A stretch of 53,638 nt of DNA, from NCBI GenBank assembly GCA_947166125.1, contig CAMVCW010000005.1, positions 1 through 53,638 on the forward strand. The letters run 5' to 3'. This DNA is from an uncultured Candidatus Saccharibacteria bacterium. Its GTDB lineage: Bacteria; Patescibacteriota; Saccharimonadia; Saccharimonadales; Saccharimonadaceae. Shown here piece by piece: positions 1,262-53,638 of this stretch. Within the stretch, counting starts at the first letter, position 1. Each line of letters opens with the position of its first letter. A program made the translations under genes and the position numbers. Below the pieces are notes generated by a model. That model saw only the letters and a program-made list of their open reading frames with translations, was not told where the DNA came from and made no database searches.

Positions 1262-2678
1262 TACTAAAATCGTCGTATGTTATCATTAATGCTCGCGAAT
1301 CTAACGACCTTAGATTCTCTAGTGCCACCGTCACTACGATAAGAAGCCCCGTACCGGAAATAGACAAGCCGATAGGTGCTCCCGTTATGATAATAAAGAT
1401 ATAATCAGTAATAAATGGCAACATCGCAATTAACCCTAGTGCCAATGCGCCAAACAAATCCAAGTGATTTACCACCTTACCCAAGTATTTCGCCGTAGCA
1501 ATACCAGGCCGCACTCCTTCAATAAAGCCACCTTGTTTTTGCAAATTATCTGCAATTTCTTTAGTGTTAAAGATAATTGATGTGTAGAAGTAAGTAAACA
1601 TAAATACCAAGATAAAATACATCGCCGGATACACAAACCATTGCCCAGTAATACCATCCGGATACATCGCCTTAAAGTTATTAGCTGACGGCGCCGAAAA
1701 AATCGTTACCAAATTTTCGCCAATTTCATTACCAGGATTTACCGTAGTAATCACCTGCCCTATGAGCGCTGGCAATGATAGAAATGCCGTAGCAAAGATC
1801 ACCGGGATCACGCCAGCAGCAATCAACTTAATTGGCAATATAGATTTAATCCCACCATAAGAAGAGTTCCCATGCACACGCTTAGCGTAGTTAATTGTCA
1901 CTATTCGCTGCGCCTCGTTTAGCTTTACCAAGAAGTAAATTACTACCAGCATCGCTATTGCAAAGCCTAGTACAATCCAAAATACCGTAGGATTTACCGG
2001 AAGTTCCAACCAGCCGAACAAATTAAGTGAACCTTCACTCGTATCAAATAGTGCATTCCCAAGCGACGCCATCGTGGTAGGTAGCTGTGAAATGATGGAT
2101 GCAAAAATCAAAGTAGAGATACCGTTGCCAATACCCTGCTCAGTGATCAGCTCACCCATCCACATCAAGATCAAGGAACCTGCCGTCATGGCCGTAACAG
2201 ATAACGCCCAATCCCCCGCCGTAGGCGTAAACTCTGCCGCCACATTGGCCGATACCGTAGATTGGTACAAAATAAAAATGTATGCAATAGACTGCACAAT
2301 AGCTAGCGGCACCGTAAGCATCCGGGTCCACTGATTAATCTTCCGCCGCCCAGTCTCACCGTCATTGGAAAGTTCTTCTAGCGAAGGAATAGCCTTAGTA
2401 AGAAGCTGAATCACAATGGATCCAGTAATATATGGCGAAAGTCCCACCAAAATAATACTAAACGAGGCCAATCCACCACCAGAAATCAAATTCAAGAAAT
2501 TAGAAAAATCAGACTTCTCCATCAGATTAGACACAGCTTCTTTAAAAGTAGCCGCATCACCCATCGGCACTGGAATTTGCGCAAGTAGCCTGTATGCCAC
2601 CAAAATTCCAAGAATAATTAGCACACGCTTTAACATGTCTTTATTTTTCAGGGATTTGAAAATAGTCTTGAAATGCAT
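1245..2678 (-). CDS. secY: protein translocase subunit SecY
   Basis: A 477-residue polytopic protein with about ten transmembrane segments, forming the channel of the Sec translocon. Recognisable SecY features are the plug and first helix region (RLLAQIPVPMG), ISGGGLASFSIILVGLSPYI, the cytoplasmic NDGETGRRKINQWTR segment, and TEQGIGNGIS. It exports all the signal-peptide proteins of the window. Unlike the usual rplO-secY pairing, rplO is about 41 kb away, and the genes on either side are a CdiA-C-like nuclease and a sortase. It has its own consensus promoter (2809-2837) and a structured leader. The ribosome binding site is AGAGG just before the ATG. Confidence 0.97.
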   Translation of the reverse strand: MHFKTIFKSLKNKDMLKRVLIILGILVAYRLLAQIPVPMGDAATFKEAVSNLMEKSDFSNFLNLISGGGLASFSIILVGLSPYITGSIVIQLLTKAIPSLEELSNDGETGRRKINQWTRMLTVPLAIVQSIAYIFILYQSTVSANVAAEFTPTAGDWALSVTAMTAGSLILMWMGELITEQGIGNGISTLIFASIISQLPTTMASLGNALFDTSEGSLNLFGWLELPVNPTVFWIVLGFAIAMLVVIYFLVKLNEAQRIVTINYAKRVHGNSSYGGIKSILPIKLIAAGVIPVIFATAFLSLPALIGQVITTVNPGNEIGENLVTIFSAPSANNFKAMYPDGITGQWFVYPAMYFILVFMFTYFYTSIIFNTKEIADNLQKQGGFIEGVRPGIATAKYLGKVVNHLDLFGALALGLIAMLPFITDYIFIIITGAPIGLSISGTGLLIVVTVALENLRSLDSRALMITYDDFSNELED

Positions 2679-3307: not shown

Positions 3308-4768
3308 CTACCGCGCCAAACACCGCACAGAGAAACCTGCCCGAGTACTATAAGAACCTGCTACGCCTACTGTCGCTGAACTAAAATATGGACGATTAGC
3401 ACCACCGTTGCCATTAGACGTAGAAGACCAGTAATAACCTATCCTGCCTCCAGAACTAAACGAACCACTGTCATAATATCCTGCACGCAAAAAGTTCGGT
3501 ATAGTGTCTGTCCCAAGTAAAGCATATAAATCTGAACCTTTAGGCAAAGTATTATTGTTGTAATCCTGTATAGAATCTGACCCGCCCAATGCAATGATAA
3601 GTTTACGGAAATCCGTAGCTCCCGCAGCCACACCGCTACCATCATAAGTAGAGGGCAGCTTCCAACCTTTTGGACAAATAGAATAAGGTGTATCAGTATT
3701 TTTTGTATTTATATTTCTGCCAGACCCTAGTGTAGCCGCGTCCCAAGAATAATAAGAATAGCAGCCAGGGGTAGAACAAGTGGTTGTATTGTTGCTATTA
3801 TAAACATAAGCATAGTTGATTGTATTAAACCCATTTGTACTAGACTCCGGTAGTTTACCACCAGTTTGCCAGCCCTGATTTTCCGGAATGGTGTAATTAT
3901 CGCAATCTGAAGTTTCGCAAGAAATCGTAGTTCCACCTGCCAAGTTTAAATTTTTTGTCATCCAAATTTTGTTATCTGCTAACTTGGCGACAGTGTATTC
4001 CTGTTCATCTCTAATATCTTTTAGCGTGTAAGTACTATTTAAGACCATAGAACTTTTAACACTAGCTAAATCTACTGCATCTAATTCTGCAAAGGTTTGC
4101 ATATAGGCTATATCGTCTATAGTCTTTGGCATTGGTTTAGTAGTTGCGGTAAAATTAATAGTGCCAGTATATGTTCCACTAGCCTGAGTTTCACTTGCTT
4201 TGGCGGCTATCTTAAAGTCTATAGAGCCATTAGAACTGCTGTCTGTATTAAATAATACTTTGTCTACCGAATTAGACAAACCAGAATAACTAGACCAAGT
4301 AGGACTAGATACTAGATTGTTTTTATAGCTATAGCCCCAGGTATTGTCTGTAGTTAAATTAGATAAACTACTATTTGTGGCTATGCTGCTAAATACATTG
4401 ACCCCGTTACTATGAGTTAAATTACTGTCATTACCATTCATTGTGGCGGACAAGTTATAGCCATATGCTGAGTTAATAGCTACGGAAATATTGATTGTAT
4501 TGCTATCGCTAGTAGTGCCCGGAGTGAGATTATCTATTGTTAAATTTGATGGCGAGATATTAACAGAAAGTGTAGGATTAAAAGTAAAACCTACACCTAC
4601 ACTACTTTGGTATGATAATGCGGAAGTATTTATTATGTTTACAAAACTTAACATTATGATTATGAAACCTAAGGTTATGATTTCTTTCTTCCCTGTAAAA
4701 TGGCTGGTTATGTTTCTAGAAAATGATATTGTGTTTTCTAAACTTAGTGTTATGTTATTTTTCCGCAT
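3308..4768 (-). CDS. FISUMP-domain surface protein (paralogue A)
   Basis: A 486-residue exported protein. An N-terminal hydrophobic segment at about residues 32-50 acts as signal or anchor. Next comes a beta-rich stalk (about 55-215) starting YQSSVGVGFTFNPTLSV, shared with the gene at 40908-42506. The C-terminal half is a Fibrobacter succinogenes major paralogous (FISUMP) domain, marked by LKDIRDEQEYTVAKL, IWMTKNLNL, CPKGWKLPS, YYWSSTS and the terminal GFSVRCLAR. FISUMP domains are secreted and related to C-type-lectin-like folds; the ligand is unknown. The residues between WSST and FSVRC (S/N/G-rich here) differ in each paralogue. The ATG follows GCGAGGTAAA, like the GTGAGGTAAA(A)G before the other leader-linked genes. 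A pseudoknotted RNA with its own promoter lies about 300 bases upstream. Confidence 0.85.
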   Translation of the reverse strand: MRKNNITLSLENTISFSRNITSHFTGKKEIITLGFIIIMLSFVNIINTSALSYQSSVGVGFTFNPTLSVNISPSNLTIDNLTPGTTSDSNTINISVAINSAYGYNLSATMNGNDSNLTHSNGVNVFSSIATNSSLSNLTTDNTWGYSYKNNLVSSPTWSSYSGLSNSVDKVLFNTDSSSNGSIDFKIAAKASETQASGTYTGTINFTATTKPMPKTIDDIAYMQTFAELDAVDLASVKSSMVLNSTYTLKDIRDEQEYTVAKLADNKIWMTKNLNLAGGTTISCETSDCDNYTIPENQGWQTGGKLPESSTNGFNTINYAYVYNSNNTTTCSTPGCYSYYSWDAATLGSGRNINTKNTDTPYSICPKGWKLPSTYDGSGVAAGATDFRKLIIALGGSDSIQDYNNNTLPKGSDLYALLGTDTIPNFLRAGYYDSGSFSSGGRIGYYWSSTSNGNGGANRPYFSSATVGVAGSYSTRAGFSVRCLAR

Positions 4769-4862
4769 TTTACCTCGCTTAGCTTATTGTTTAATTTTTA
4801 TATTTAGCGGGTATAGTATAATTTAAAACCTAATTTTTAGTAGCCTTGAGCAAACCTGAGAA

Positions 4863-4949: not shown

Positions 4950-5074
4950 CTTCCCAGCGTGCAGCGAAACAGCTATAAAAATTATGGTTTTAAATTATCT
5001 AAACCATTATTCGCTAAATATGTTAAATTACTCTATCTTTGCGGTACCATCTTGTAATTTATGAAAAGGCGTAT

Positions 5075-5223
5075 TTACAAAAAATGGCACCGCAAGGGGT
5101 GCAAAACTTATCGTATAACTAAAGCTAGCTACGCAATAGGTACCTTACGGCGCCATTTCAAACTGCGTAGCCCTTTATATGATAAATAAAAAGTGCTTTA
5201 GTTACTAACGAATAAGTTTTGCT
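5075..5223 (-). ncRNA. pseudoknotted leader or small RNA, copy 1 (upstream of a FISUMP gene)
   Basis: Read on the minus strand from 5223: GCAAAACTTAT pairs with ATAAGTTTTGC near the 3' end, then AACTAAAGC with GCTTTAGTT, then CTACGCA with TGCGTAG. The apical loop GGCGCCGTAAGG is complementary (with G-U pairs) to CCTTGCGGTGCC directly after the stem, followed by ATTTTTTG. Copies at 23518-23660 and 53174-53320 share the loop, the 3' segment and the T tract but have different, still complementary stems. The -10 box ends 6 bases before the stem, so the RNA should start at the stem base. Class not recognised. Confidence 0.7.
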
Positions 5224-5228
5224 CTTTC

Positions 5229-5237
5229 ATTATAGCA
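5229..5237 (-). promoter_or_regulatory. extended -10 promoter of structured RNA copy 1
   Basis: On the minus strand TGCTATAAT, an extended -10 box with no clear -35. It lies directly behind the rpoC terminator, which separates the RNA from rpoBC transcription. The -10 to stem distance (6 bases) is the same in all three RNA copies. Confidence 0.7.
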
Positions 5238-23482: not shown

Positions 23483-23513
23483 TTAACATAAATGGAAAAT
23501 AATATGTTACAAT
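23483..23513 (+). promoter_or_regulatory. promoter of structured RNA copy 2
   Basis: -10 TACAAT (23508-23513) with a weak TTAACA (23483-23488) 19 bases upstream. The TGCAA of the RNA stem begins 6 bases after the -10, as in the other copies. Confidence 0.55.
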
Positions 23514-23517
23514 AAAA

Positions 23518-23660
23518 GTGCAACAATTTCATAATGAATAGCGTCAGCTATTTTAATATTTATTCGAACACAAAACGGCACCGTAAGGAAATCCGTTGTT
23601 CGAATCAGTATTGCTGGCGAGAATTATGAGATTGTTGCACCCCTTGCGGTGCCATTTTTG
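23518..23660 (+). ncRNA. pseudoknotted leader or small RNA, copy 2 (upstream of a FISUMP gene)
   Basis: Stem 1: GTGCAACAATTTCATAAT (23518-23535) with ATTATGAGATTGTTGCAC (23623-23640), 18 pairs with one U-G. Stem 2: CGTCAGC with GCTGGCG. Stem 3: ATTCGAACA with TGTTCGAAT. The apical loop GGCACCGTAAGG (23577-23588) is complementary to CCTTGCGGTGCC (23642-23653), and ATTTTTG follows. The stems share no sequence with copies 1 and 3, but loop and 3' segment do. The 3' segment can alternatively form GCACC-CCTTGC-GGTGC plus a T tract, a terminator-like hairpin competing with both stem 1 and the pseudoknot. Confidence 0.75.
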
Positions 23661-23823
23661 TTAATCCCCATTAATATAGTGGCACCACATGGGGGGATTA
23701 GTAGTAATCATATATAAGTGAGGTAAAGATGGGCCACAAAGCAAAACAATCATTAATGAGTAGTAGAGCAGATTTCTTCTACTATGCTTTCCGTAATGTA
23801 TTGTTAGTCTCTGTTCCTCTTCT
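23637..23823 (+). repeat. direct repeat of FISUMP-type leader and gene start (copy 1 of 2)
   Basis: From GCACCCCTTGCGG through the start codon and about 30 codons, this block is nearly identical to 53297-53500. Similarity stops abruptly upstream (different stems) and fades downstream, so a cassette of RNA 3' segment, second hairpin, ribosome binding site and signal-anchor coding region was duplicated or kept homogeneous. Confidence 0.85.
23663..23699 (+). promoter_or_regulatory. second leader hairpin before FISUMP gene B
   Basis: AATCCCC (23663-23669) pairs with GGGGATT (23693-23699), enclosing GTGGCACCAC (23679-23688). Its TGGCACC can also pair with GGTGCCA of the upstream RNA (about 23648-23654), giving a third mutually exclusive pairing. 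It ends about 30 bases before the ATG. Confidence 0.6.
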
Positions 23824-25255
23824 TGTGGTTTCTAGTGTTGTTTTATCTCATTTATCACTTCATAGTTCCGCCACAGGTTCTGGAACAGACCAAATCCAGT
23901 TCTCACTTTCTTCTTCTTGTACTATGTCTAGTGTAGTAGACGAAGCTCATACCAAAGAAATCAATAATGGTACCTATCATAGTGATGTGGGTAAGACTAC
24001 CATTACTACACTATGTAATGATGGTAATGGGTATAGTGTATATGCAGTAGGATATAGTAATAATGAAGAAGGTAATAATAAACTCATTAACGCAGAACAC
24101 CCTGAATACAGTATAGACACAGGATTAGCGACCAGTGGATTAATCTCTAATTGGGCTATGAAGTTAAACAACATACCAGATGATCCTTCTCCTACTCCAC
24201 CAGTTATAGAACCAGCTTATGACAATACTTATGGCTTAGTGCCACAATACTGGACTAGGGTAGCTTCTAGACCTTCTGGTACTACTGATATGGATGAAGG
24301 TTCTTCCTTTACTACTACCTATGCCATCTACACTACTTCTAACCAACATGCTGGTACATACAATGGACAAGTGAAATATGTTCTCACTCATCCATCCACC
24401 CGGCCATATGTATACTATATGCAAGAAGTAGATAAATGGAAGAATACGATAGCTCTAGAAGAAAGCGTACAGGCTATAGATATGCGGGATGGTAAGAAAT
24501 ATTGGGTAACCAAACTTAAGGATGGAAATATCTGGATGACGCAAAACTTGGATTTAGATATAGAAGCTAATACTGTGCTTAATTCCCAAACTACAGACTT
24601 AAATGTAGCTTATGACTCCAGTACTGGGCAGTATGCAGAATATGATAATGGATATACAGAAAGTAATGAAGTAATATACTATACTCCAGACAGTAGTGCT
24701 AATACTATAGATTTTACTGGTACTGATGTTTCTGGTTGGCAGAATAGTGATACTGAGCCATATACTGCTAACAAAACAGATGATACTGGCACAGGCCATG
24801 CTTCACTAGGTAATTACTATAACTGGACTGCAGCTATAGCATCTAATAATTCTTCTTCATTAACACAAGATACATTAAGTGATATATCTAAGAATCCTAA
24901 GAATTCTATATGTCCTAAAGGATGGAGATTGCCTACTATATCCAACCAGTCTAATACCATCTCCGGCTCTACTAATGAATTTGCAAGGCTGAACTATTTA
25001 TATAACAACAATTCAACATCAAATTCAGACGGATTCGTCATCAAGCCACTATACTTCATTTATGGCGGACTCATTAATGACAGAACACTATACATCGATA
25101 TGCGAGATGGTGGGGGTAATTACAGGTCAAGTACGGTTTCCAGCTCATTATCGTCCTATCGTTTGGCAATTACTGATTCGCTAGCCAACGTAGCCGATGG
25201 CTCAAAGTGGTCAGCCAAAAATAGAGGGATGTCCATCCGCTGCCTCGCCAAATAG
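23729..25255 (+). CDS. FISUMP-domain surface protein (paralogue B)
   Basis: A 508-residue exported protein. A signal-anchor at about residues 22-45 is followed by a Cys-containing beta domain (SSSCTMSSVVDEAH) unlike that of paralogues A and C but shared with the partial gene at 53392. The FISUMP domain has DMRDGKKYWVTKL, NIWMTQNLDL, CPKGWRLPT and ends GMSIRCLAK; the usual YWSST is degenerate (NYRSSTVSS). The last 230 bases or so are clearly richer in CpG than the rest of the gene, which may mark an exchanged 3' part. The ribosome binding site is GTGAGGTAAAG, and a structured leader lies directly upstream. Confidence 0.85.
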   Translation: MGHKAKQSLMSSRADFFYYAFRNVLLVSVPLLVVSSVVLSHLSLHSSATGSGTDQIQFSLSSSCTMSSVVDEAHTKEINNGTYHSDVGKTTITTLCNDGNGYSVYAVGYSNNEEGNNKLINAEHPEYSIDTGLATSGLISNWAMKLNNIPDDPSPTPPVIEPAYDNTYGLVPQYWTRVASRPSGTTDMDEGSSFTTTYAIYTTSNQHAGTYNGQVKYVLTHPSTRPYVYYMQEVDKWKNTIALEESVQAIDMRDGKKYWVTKLKDGNIWMTQNLDLDIEANTVLNSQTTDLNVAYDSSTGQYAEYDNGYTESNEVIYYTPDSSANTIDFTGTDVSGWQNSDTEPYTANKTDDTGTGHASLGNYYNWTAAIASNNSSSLTQDTLSDISKNPKNSICPKGWRLPTISNQSNTISGSTNEFARLNYLYNNNSTSNSDGFVIKPLYFIYGGLINDRTLYIDMRDGGGNYRSSTVSSSLSSYRLAITDSLANVADGSKWSAKNRGMSIRCLAK

Positions 25256-25314: not shown

Positions 25315-25370
25315 TTTAGGCACGTGCCTAAAAATATCACCAAAATCACCCCTGTTATTACAGAGGTGAT
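25315..25370 (-). terminator. two-hairpin 3' element (copy B)
   Basis: TTTAGGCACGTGCCTAAA (25315-25332) is a perfect palindrome, and ATCACCCCTGT / ACAGAGGTGAT (345-355 and 360-370) a second hairpin. It matches copy A at 482-540: TAGAC/GTCTA there becomes TAGGC/GCCTA here, a compensatory A-T to G-C change. It lies between convergent genes and ends the CHAP-hydrolase transcript; it may also serve the FISUMP gene on the plus strand. Confidence 0.7.
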
Positions 25371-25399
25371 ACACCATATATTATATATAGATCTAAACT

Positions 25400-40907: not shown

Positions 40908-42506
40908 CTATGTACCAACCATACAGCGGACGGAGAATCCGCTGCTCCTGCCGCCGTTGGTGCTCGGCCAGATACCACTATCATTAAAGACCAGGTAGTA
41001 GGCGTTGTTAGCATTGAAGACCGTACTAGACCAATAGCGGCCGTTGCTGCCTAAATTGATAAGCGAACTGCCATCGACGCTGCCGAACCGCTGATAGCAT
41101 AGAGGAGCCGTACGAAGCTTATTAAAGCCATCGGTAGCATAAGAATTACCCGAGCTAAATACTTCTTGAGCGGTCATCAAAGTACCATAGGCGCCATTTA
41201 CTGGTAAATCCCAGTTCTTTGGACAAACGGAATTACTCCAGGTAGAACCGTTTGGTGCTGTACTGGCATTATTAGTCGCGGCTGCGGCAGGCCAGTTGTA
41301 GTAGTTACCAAAGTGTGAATGCTGACAACCTACCGTATCGTTATTGTTATTGTTTGCACAAGTTTCTAGCGATGTATAGGTATTTTCAGCGTATGAGGAT
41401 GGGTTAGTATATCTATATCTTTCACCAGGGTCAGCAGAATATGGATGATTGTTGTCGTTTGCCCAGTTTGGCACACTGTCACCATTCATGACGATAGTAT
41501 CCGCACGTTGAGTAGGAGTCCCGCCCACATCAACTATAGTGCTAGGAAGCCATGAGACCACTCCAGTATCTTTATCTTTGCTATAACCATTAGCCTGAGT
41601 ATAAATACCAGTATCATAAGTAGTTGGGTCCATATCACTAGTTTCTGAAGTTAAAGCTACTTCATGCGATAAATCTAGATCTAAGTTCTGCGTCATCCAG
41701 CAGTTGTTGTCTTTAAGTTTAGCTACCCAATATACCTTATCATCTCTTACGTCTATAAGTTGCATACCTTTTTCTCCATTTGTATCTATGGATTTACATA
41801 TGGTGGGCGTCATATCCTGCATCTTAAAGTAACCATTATGCATTTTAGCTCCTGAAGCTATAAAGGCATCTAGCATAGTAGTAGGTATGGTGTTAGATAC
41901 TGCAGTAAAATTAATAACATTGTTATACTCACCAGATGCTTGGCTACTCCCGGCTTTTGCCGCTATTTTAAACTGTACCGAGCTACCAGCATTATCACTG
42001 CTACCAGCCAACTTCACACCGGTAGCCGTATATAATGGCAAAACTCCGTAACCCGCCGTAGCGCTACTGTAATCTCCGTTTATCCAATTCGTCCCATTAT
42101 CTATAGAATATGAATATCCCCACTCATTATTACCAAAATTAGCCAAACCCGCCACGCTGGCCGATAGTGGCGTAAAGCTATAATCCCCATTAACCAAATT
42201 TTGCGTAGCGTTGCTGCTATTACCTACCGTGGCAGACAAATTATATCCATAAACCACATTTGTAGATACATTCACGTCTATGATATTGCTATCTCGCGCA
42301 GCAGTTCCCGGAGCGAGACCATTAATAGTCAAATCCCTGTTAGATAACGTAACACTAAGAGAGGGATTGAACGTAAACCCCACCCCTACATTGCTTTGAT
42401 AATCCAAAGCCCCCGCACCATCAACACCCCCAAGTAACACTCCCCCCATAATCCCCCCTAAACTTATCAAACAGAACAATCTAACAAACTTGGTACGCCT
42501 TTTCAT
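40908..42506 (-). CDS. FISUMP-domain surface protein (paralogue C)
   Basis: A 532-residue exported protein. Signal peptide at about residues 8-33, then the same stalk as paralogue A (YQSNVGVGFTFNPSLSVTLS) and a FISUMP domain (LIDVRDDKVYWVAKL, CWMTQNLDLDL, CPKNWDLPV, RYWSSTVFNA, GFSVRCMVGT). Unlike A and B it has no structured RNA upstream: TGCTATAAT ends 7 bases before the ATG, so it looks leaderless. Two members of the family thus have complex leaders and one has none. Confidence 0.85.
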   Translation of the reverse strand: MKRRTKFVRLFCLISLGGIMGGVLLGGVDGAGALDYQSNVGVGFTFNPSLSVTLSNRDLTINGLAPGTAARDSNIIDVNVSTNVVYGYNLSATVGNSSNATQNLVNGDYSFTPLSASVAGLANFGNNEWGYSYSIDNGTNWINGDYSSATAGYGVLPLYTATGVKLAGSSDNAGSSVQFKIAAKAGSSQASGEYNNVINFTAVSNTIPTTMLDAFIASGAKMHNGYFKMQDMTPTICKSIDTNGEKGMQLIDVRDDKVYWVAKLKDNNCWMTQNLDLDLSHEVALTSETSDMDPTTYDTGIYTQANGYSKDKDTGVVSWLPSTIVDVGGTPTQRADTIVMNGDSVPNWANDNNHPYSADPGERYRYTNPSSYAENTYTSLETCANNNNNDTVGCQHSHFGNYYNWPAAAATNNASTAPNGSTWSNSVCPKNWDLPVNGAYGTLMTAQEVFSSGNSYATDGFNKLRTAPLCYQRFGSVDGSSLINLGSNGRYWSSTVFNANNAYYLVFNDSGIWPSTNGGRSSGFSVRCMVGT

Positions 42507-53140: not shown

Positions 53141-53169
53141 TTGCAGAAAAATCTTGAGCGAGTTATAAT
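53141..53169 (+). promoter_or_regulatory. promoter of structured RNA copy 3
   Basis: TTGCAG (53141-53146), 17-base spacer, TATAAT (53164-53169). The stem of the RNA begins 6 bases after the -10. It is divergent from the large surface protein gene. Confidence 0.75.
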
Positions 53170-53173
53170 AAAA

Positions 53174-53320
53174 ATGCAAATCATTAGTAAACAGGACTGG
53201 ATTTTTATAGAGGAAAATCCAATGTACGAATAGTAACGGCACCGTGAGGGCTTTAGTTCGTAAATTGGGTTTTCCCAGTCCTATGGCTAATGATTTGCAC
53301 CCCTTGCGGTGCCATTTTTG
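53174..53320 (+). ncRNA. pseudoknotted leader or small RNA, copy 3 (upstream of a surface-protein gene)
   Basis: TGCAAATCATTAG (53175-53187) pairs perfectly with CTAATGATTTGCA (53287-53299); AGGACTGG with CCCAGTCCT; GGAAAATCCAATGTACGAA with TTCGTAAATTGGGTTTTCC with a few mismatches. The loop GGCACCGTGAGGG (53238-53250) is complementary with G-U pairs to CCCTTGCGGTGCC (53301-53313), then ATTTTTG. Same architecture as copies 1 and 2 with unrelated stem sequence. Together with its promoter and second hairpin it fills the 339-base gap before the next gene. Confidence 0.75.
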
Positions 53321-53500
53321 TTAATCCCCATTAATATAGTGGCACCACATGGGGGGTAGTAATAATCATATATACATAAGTGAGGTAAAAGATGGGCCAC
53401 AAAGTAAAACAATCATTAGTAAATAGTAGAACAGATTTCTTCTACTATGCTTTCCGCAATGTATTGTTAGCTTCTGTTCCTCTTCTTGTGGTTTGTGCTC
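53297..53500 (+). repeat. direct repeat of FISUMP-type leader and gene start (copy 2 of 2)
   Basis: Near-identical to 23637-23823, covering the RNA 3' segment, the second hairpin, the ribosome binding site and the signal-anchor codons. Confidence 0.85.
53326..53355 (+). promoter_or_regulatory. second leader hairpin before the partial surface gene
   Basis: CCCCAT and ATGGGG enclose GTGGCACCAC (53339-53348), as at 23663-23699. Its TGGCACC could pair with GGTGCCA of the upstream RNA. Confidence 0.55.
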
Positions 53501-53638
53501 TTATTCTTAGTCTTGGCGTTTCTCGCTCATCCGCACGTGTATCATCTAGTGATAGTTTAGCTATTTCTGTTCCTAGTTCTTGCACTTTATCTAGTTCTGT
53601 AGATGAAACTCATAGTGCTAGTATAGTTAATGGTACTT
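53392..53638 (+). CDS. surface protein of the FISUMP B type, 5' part only
   Basis: The frame runs off the window after 82 codons. MGHKVKQSLVNSRTDFFYYA then FRNVLLASVPLLVV is almost the same as the start of the protein at 23729, followed by a similar Cys-containing domain (VPSSCTLSSSVDETHSASIV). A FISUMP domain is expected beyond the window but not seen. GTGAGGTAAAAG precedes the ATG. It has the third copy of the structured RNA upstream. Confidence 0.8.
   Translation, partial: MGHKVKQSLVNSRTDFFYYAFRNVLLASVPLLVVCALILSLGVSRSSARVSSSDSLAISVPSSCTLSSSVDETHSASIVNGT

Follow-up and report, generated by a model that had tools for sequence, protein, structure and literature searches.

A putative pseudoknotted, attenuator-like leader RNA in front of exchangeable surface-protein genes of Saccharibacteria

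Many surface-protein genes of an uncultured Candidatus Saccharibacteria bacterium (GenBank assembly GCA_947166125.1) follow a structured leader RNA that, in the reading we favor and consider probable, acts in cis to attenuate expression of that gene. The apical loop (L) of a long hairpin would pair with a single-stranded tail (T) to form a pseudoknotted terminator or lock, at a site that stays fixed while the gene behind it is exchanged. Sequence comparison establishes a predicted transcription start position, the hairpin, L and T strands that co-evolve copy by copy, a conserved U-run directly after T, competing partners for the pairing strands and, in one species pair, exchange of genes. The leader is a structured-RNA family absent from Rfam 15 and previously uncatalogued, attenuator-like in its organization and placed in no known RNA family.

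Leader copies in the window, the genome and the order

The window, by which we mean the whole 53,638-nt stretch of contig CAMVCW010000005.1 that was analyzed, holds three copies of the leader. Copy 1 lies on the minus strand, where the RNA occupies 5080..5222 (143 nt from the first base of the basal helix P1 to the end of the U-run; covariance-model match, E 2.8e-18) behind a -10 box TATAAT at 5229..5234 with TG at the extended position. The two arms of P1, identified by covariation, span 5209..5222 (5' arm) and 5101..5114 (3' arm), and loop L, GGCGCCGTAAGG, is found at 5143..5154. Tail T, CCCCTTGCGGTGCCA, assigned by L:T covariation, covers 5085..5099 and is adjoined by the U-run at 5080..5084; the plus-strand feature at 5082-5093 from which the original prediction started is the complement of this minus-strand tail and U-run. 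An element D, TGGTACCGCA, which emerged from a comparison of T with downstream sequence as its alternative partner, follows at 5040..5049, and the surface gene, carrying a FISUMP domain (Fib_succ_major), at 3308..4768.

Copies 2 and 3 lie on the plus strand. Copy 2 (23520..23659, 140 nt, E 6.2e-30) has its -10 box TACAAT at 23508..23513, L (GGCACCGTAAGG) at 23577..23588, T (CCCCTTGCGGTGCCA) at 23640..23654, the U-run at 23655..23659, D (TGGCACCACA) at 23680..23689 and a surface gene at 23729..25255, whose FISUMP domain alone scores just below the NCBIfam cut-off while the whole-frame score lies above it. Copy 3 (53176..53319, 144 nt, E 5.6e-17) has its -10 box TATAAT at 53164..53169, L (GGCACCGTGAGG) at 53238..53249, T (CCCCTTGCGGTGCCA) at 53300..53314, the U-run at 53315..53319, D (TGGCACCACA) at 53340..53349 and a surface gene at 53392..53638 that is cut by the window (contig) end and begins with the N terminus MGHKVKQSL, as in its paralogues. 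The measured lengths of 140-144 nt agree with the RNA of about 145 bases that had been predicted. The stems of the three copies are unlike, and the loops GGCGCCGTAAGG, GGCACCGTAAGG and GGCACCGTGAGG pair with one identical tail, CCCCTTGCGGTGCCA, followed by TTTTT. The expectation that loop and 3' segment are conserved and stems are not was thus right as to sequence, but the pairing of the stems is itself conserved; likewise, the three copies first noticed are indeed present in the window, but the genome holds 39.

Several further observations concern the window. The distance from U-run to start codon is ~311 nt in copy 1 against a usual ~70, copy 1 being the exception to an arrangement in which a same-strand gene stands close behind the leader. 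An insertion-like palindrome, with arms at 4818-4844 and 4972-4998, lies between D and the gene of copy 1. A FISUMP-domain gene at 40908-42506 (minus strand) has no leader RNA in front. An 81-nt direct repeat (84% identity) at 486-566 and 25315-25395, the second unit just past the copy 2 surface gene, holds the hairpin CACCCCTGTTATTACAGGGGTGA and is probably a shared terminator.

The count of 39 leaders comes from a covariance-model search (E<1e-13) of the bacterium's own genome (816,580 bases in 8 contigs). Pattern searches of the same genome returned 25 near-identical tails and 38 exact loop-gap-tail patterns on both strands summed, and the backwards pattern, run as a control, had no match. 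Given 39 model-detected copies against none in this control, the family is not a product of chance. Contigs of these assemblies (C1 to C5 of this genome, and those of many relatives) frequently stop at the tail or in the conserved gene start, and copy numbers are therefore lower bounds. Reverse-strand matches of the model were rejected as an artefact of motif repeats: a single motif recurs as L, T and D, its orientation alternating from one to the next.

The association with surface-gene paralogues, part of the original prediction, was borne out. There are 37 genes with a FISUMP domain (TIGR02145 / PF09603) in the genome, and by comparison of coordinates 29 of the 34 leaders away from contig ends are followed by such a gene; across the genus, the domain was found in 29 of 38 downstream proteins scanned (E<=0.01). 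Behind D at four loci (L011, L032, L037 and L116), ~40-150 nt past the tail, we observed other palindromic insertions or non-coding stretches and no open surface gene, and these sites are perhaps broken or silent.

Relatives that bear the leader are assemblies of Candidatus Saccharibacteria, and ruminant small intestine is the source of many of them. A second form of the leader, with P1 GUCUUA/UAAGAC, L ACGGCACCGCAUAA and T CACCUUGCGGUGUCGUUUUU, was detected with models R2 and R3 in 30 of the 61 genera sampled within the family and, beyond it, in eight further families of the order. It usually occurs once per genome; among matching genomes of other genera, 33 of 56 have a single copy. The genes behind it are varied, some of them short (75-110 aa), and from their sequences we take them to encode exported or membrane proteins, pilin-like proteins, methyltransferases and short TM2-like proteins. 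At one locus (L256), a second-form leader in front of a methyltransferase gene has a tRNA gene at 1702-1785 (minus strand) immediately upstream, possibly an island at a tRNA. A weak match outside the order (G553, E 1e-3) was set aside, as it fitted poorly and had no promoter at the usual spacing.

We also rejected a mobile or phage origin, as viral contigs gave no match to the second form and a single contig for the first. One IMG/VR contig (L344, 11272-11293, minus strand) carries the tail pattern and may be bacterial sequence. At gathering score, Rfam 15 had no match in the window; in 11 further loci it reported only tRNAs, none of them over the element, and permissive thresholds below gathering score yielded nothing meaningful. 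No description of the leader was found in the part of the Saccharibacteria literature that our search covered, most subscription papers lying outside it.

Promoter, fold and covariation

The leader has a fixed order of promoter, long hairpin with loop L (GGCRYCGYRRGG), tail T (C2-4TTGCGGTGCCA) and TTTTT. Exactly 6 nt separate the -10 hexamer from P1 in 117 of the 132 copies compared, TGn precedes the hexamer in 105 of the 132, and this fixed spacing places the predicted RNA start at the first base pair of P1. In constrained folds, a P1 of ~24 bp and a P2 of ~15 bp meet at a junction that has a 5' insert of ~16 nt holding UUUU and ~1 nt on its 3' side; short linkers lead to L. Energies in the own genome are mostly between -36 and -50 kcal/mol. 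P1 (~24 bp) is about as long as P2 and the L:T helix together (15+12), so that L could reach T if the three-way junction were folded back, although this is a plausibility argument only.

The fold was evaluated on a covariation alignment (A5) of 100 distinct copies from 31 genomes, in which 36 pairs were tested. Overall, 97.0% of cells were paired compared with 74.3% after shuffling, 29 of the 36 pairs had changed on both sides, and double-changed cells numbered 789 against 216 shuffled. In P1, each of the 14 tested pairs had changed on both sides and 99.4% of cells were paired over the 100 copies, in every one of which the first pair is formed. The L:T pseudoknot lay outside the model used for alignment and so was not fitted by it; nevertheless, its 15 pairs were 96.5% paired, 8 of the 15 were double-changed (43 cells against 9.6 shuffled), and the signal was lost when the partner was slid by 1-3 columns. 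The core of T, GGUGCC, is nearly invariant, while L varies from A to G (28%) and from C to U (25%) with pairing kept. Swapping tails between genomes lowered L:T pairing from 13.505 to 13.035 of 14 (z 15.6); swapping within genomes lowered it to 13.44 of 14 (z 3.1, 1 of 2000), a small effect that reflects the near identity of tails in most genomes. The covariation places the L:T pairing within the individual copy, and the resulting pseudoknot is predicted to sit directly before the U-run, which is itself 98-100% conserved in the 100 copies.

The terminator-like T run of the original prediction is supported as a U-run standing directly behind a paired tail, and the leader contains a stable helix (L:T) with a run of U immediately after it, as in an intrinsic terminator. 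In the mechanism we consider probable, transcription would start at the first base of P1 in the long hairpin, the apical loop L would capture the single-stranded tail T to form a pseudoknot directly before TTTTT, and this structure would serve as both intrinsic terminator and lock, attenuating the downstream gene. Several observations count against an attenuator: the U-run has just five bases, the 5' strand of the pseudoknot lies 45-55 nt upstream, which is unusual for termination, and a P1 at +1 is equally expected of a pure 5' stabilizer. On the same side stand the missing upstream competitor, the position of the downstream competitor behind the U-run and the modest opening of the ribosome-binding site in the own genus, all described below. 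The stabilizer reading, in which a +1 hairpin locked by a pseudoknot guards the mRNA from 5'-end decay without any switching, draws on the position of P1 at the predicted +1, on the formation of its first pair in all 100 copies and on the great differences among downstream genes in other genera. As it accounts neither for the invariant U-run behind T nor for the complementarity of T to D, nor for the competitor that L has in other genera, we regard it as rather unlikely.

Competing pairings and action in cis or in trans

Both strands of the putative lock have competing partners, which differ between the own genus and other genera. In the second form, L is complementary to a segment, Y, of the 5' insert (z -2.70, t -9.3, 24 copies from other genera), and Y and L show compensating changes, e.g. 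CTATGC/GCATAG and GCGTGG/CCACGC. Y is transcribed before the U-run, and Y:L versus L:T is, as far as the predicted pairings go, the geometry of antitermination versus termination; Y:L pairing would thus constitute the permissive state in other genera. The upstream competitor was not found in the own genus, where L against the insert gave z +0.26. Pairing of the U-rich insert with the A-rich flank of L was also considered for the own genus and rejected, as it gave only a weak signal (z -0.24).

The own genus instead has D (TGGCACCRCA), the third copy of the motif, ~20-35 nt past the U-run. When T was compared with the next 100 nt, the genome-mean z was -3.25 (t -7.1, 33 genomes) in the own genus, compared with -0.27 for a control stretch and a weak -0.78 elsewhere. 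L:T is the stronger of the two pairings, with a mean of -24.3 kcal/mol against -17.9 for T:D in the own genome. Being located after the U-run, D cannot decide termination in cis and could act only on read-through RNA. Complementarity to the ribosome-binding site was also found for the segment after the U-run (z -1.41 in 23 genomes), the sequences involved differing among genomes. Folding with T free, which adds ~4-23 kcal/mol, slightly opens the start region, and relative to folds with T masked the ribosome-binding site became more open in 13 genomes and less open in 4, a modest effect. In the own genus, the permissive state may therefore consist of T:D pairing downstream together with anti-RBS pairing by the post-U-run segment, and D and this segment would then control translation. 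At loci L094, L138 and L139 (genome G210) and L100 (G262), the post-U-run segment is complementary to the end of the copy's own P1 3' arm and the start of T; GTTTAACACCC / GGGTGTTAAAC is an example of such a copy-specific alternative pairing from this set.

A complex fold at +1 ahead of long exported-protein genes could also be read as a leader that modifies RNA polymerase for processive antitermination, in the manner of the put or EAR RNAs, so that long surface genes are read through. In other genera, however, the leader precedes short genes of 75-110 aa, and a U-run inside the element suggests termination rather than its suppression, which makes this reading quite improbable.

The original prediction had gone further, proposing that each copy releases its RNA at the U-run and that the tail or loop of this 145-nt sRNA silences the leaders at other sites, giving one-at-a-time expression. 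Its premise stands: in the own genome, the loop of any copy fits the tail of every other copy, the 1482 cross combinations forming 13.5 of 14 pairs on average and never fewer than 11. The U-run is terminator-like, and D, which nearly all leaders have close to the start codon, is a possible target. Against action in trans, L and T co-evolve copy by copy, and pairing within one molecule enjoys a far higher effective concentration than pairing between molecules. A genome-wide search for the complement of the tail (<=2 mismatches) found almost none outside the elements, near-matches being nearly all L, T or D themselves, so that the surplus of targets outside its own copy expected of a trans-acting sRNA did not appear. 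The distribution of the family is the strongest argument against trans action as a core function, since the single-copy genomes of other genera offer no partner copy. In most copies the start codon follows the U-run at a distance of ~15-80 nt, which leaves little room for a separate promoter, and the leader is most likely part of its gene's own mRNA. With cassette exchange (below) added to within-copy co-evolution, single-copy genomes, the lack of extra sites and close start codons, trans action and one-at-a-time expression find no support, and we judge them improbable. An sRNA of ~145 nt may well exist as a terminated product; the sequence evidence does not point to a regulatory role for it in trans.

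Exchange of genes behind fixed leaders

We compared the own genome with one other genome of the genus (G254), a single species pair. Twenty-six loci share their upstream flank at 71-99.8% identity; a 27th flank match of 39 bp was ignored. Hairpins are 60-100% identical at orthologous sites compared with a mean of 59% among the sites of one genome. Behind these conserved flanks, the best protein match was found at another site in 8 of 12 testable orthologous pairs, and the leader type differed in 12 of 19 pairs typed. In aligned examples, identity extends across the promoter and the hairpin until it is lost at the tail or D, and in longer comparisons synteny resumes just past the gene, which was fully replaced in one case, mosaic in three and unchanged in one. 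In the own genus, promoter and hairpin would thus form a fixed expression site, with the gene exchanged by recombination from the tail or beyond.

Since between-species identity breaks at the tail, beside the hairpin base, and hairpins are alike in shape and unlike in sequence, the element might instead be an integron-like recombination site in DNA, its hairpin guiding a recombinase that swaps cassettes at the 3' base and its role as RNA being secondary. Breaks also fall at D and inside genes, however, producing mosaics typical of ordinary recombination between paralogues. No integron integrase scored over the cut-off in the own genome, and the only tyrosine recombinase match there is generic, with matches at the same level in 14 of 14 control genomes. 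Pairing that tolerates G-U and a promoter locked to P1 indicate RNA, and other genera, which have few copies, showed no cassette exchange. We consider a dedicated recombination site very improbable, the least credible of the alternatives; ordinary recombination among paralogues that have everything from the tail onward in common is sufficient.

Returning to the attenuator, exchange of this kind offers an explanation for the identical tail that fits every loop, as the tail moves with the gene when genes are swapped between sites. A tentative extension, which we hold to be possible though not the likelier outcome, is a lock-and-key arrangement in which promoter and resident loop (the lock) stay fixed while cassettes carry the universal tail (the key) and the competing D. 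An incoming tail, once captured by the resident loop, would place the new gene under the same RNA switch. If this is true, any surface gene could be swapped into any of the ~39 sites and still be regulated.

The proposed leader resembles known attenuators and riboswitch expression platforms in being a 5' leader transcribed from its promoter, in having a helix followed by a U-run and, in other genera, in having mutually exclusive partners (Y:L versus L:T). It differs in that the terminator-like helix is a loop-tail pseudoknot with stems free in sequence, and in that the own genus has no evident conserved ligand pocket and a competitor placed after the U-run. Compact pseudoknots in mRNA leaders are shared with the EAR (eps-associated RNA), preQ1 and SAM-II elements, the first of which precedes surface-polysaccharide operons; the present leader has no Rfam match, another topology and a P1 of ~24 bp at +1. 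At the level of genes, vlsE of Borrelia, vlhA of mycoplasmas and msp2 of Anaplasma are likewise surface-gene families that recombine between loci and have conserved ends, whereas here each locus has its own promoter and leader hairpin, and a single expression site with silent cassettes was not seen. Integron cassettes are similarly swapped behind a fixed promoter beside a folded site, but here there is no integrase over the cut-off, a promoter is kept at each site and breakpoints vary.

Saccharibacteria are epibionts with tiny genomes, and their surface must match their host bacteria; to our knowledge, the control of their surface genes is largely unknown. With ~39 copies in a 0.8-Mb genome, the leader marks, and probably controls, an exchangeable repertoire of FISUMP surface proteins, and the list of promoters, leaders and genes is a direct handle on surface variation in this group. 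Because genes move from site to site, every loop has to remain compatible with every tail, which makes the family an unusual case, and the sequence comparisons suggest a built-in switch that would fit whichever gene is plugged in behind the leader.
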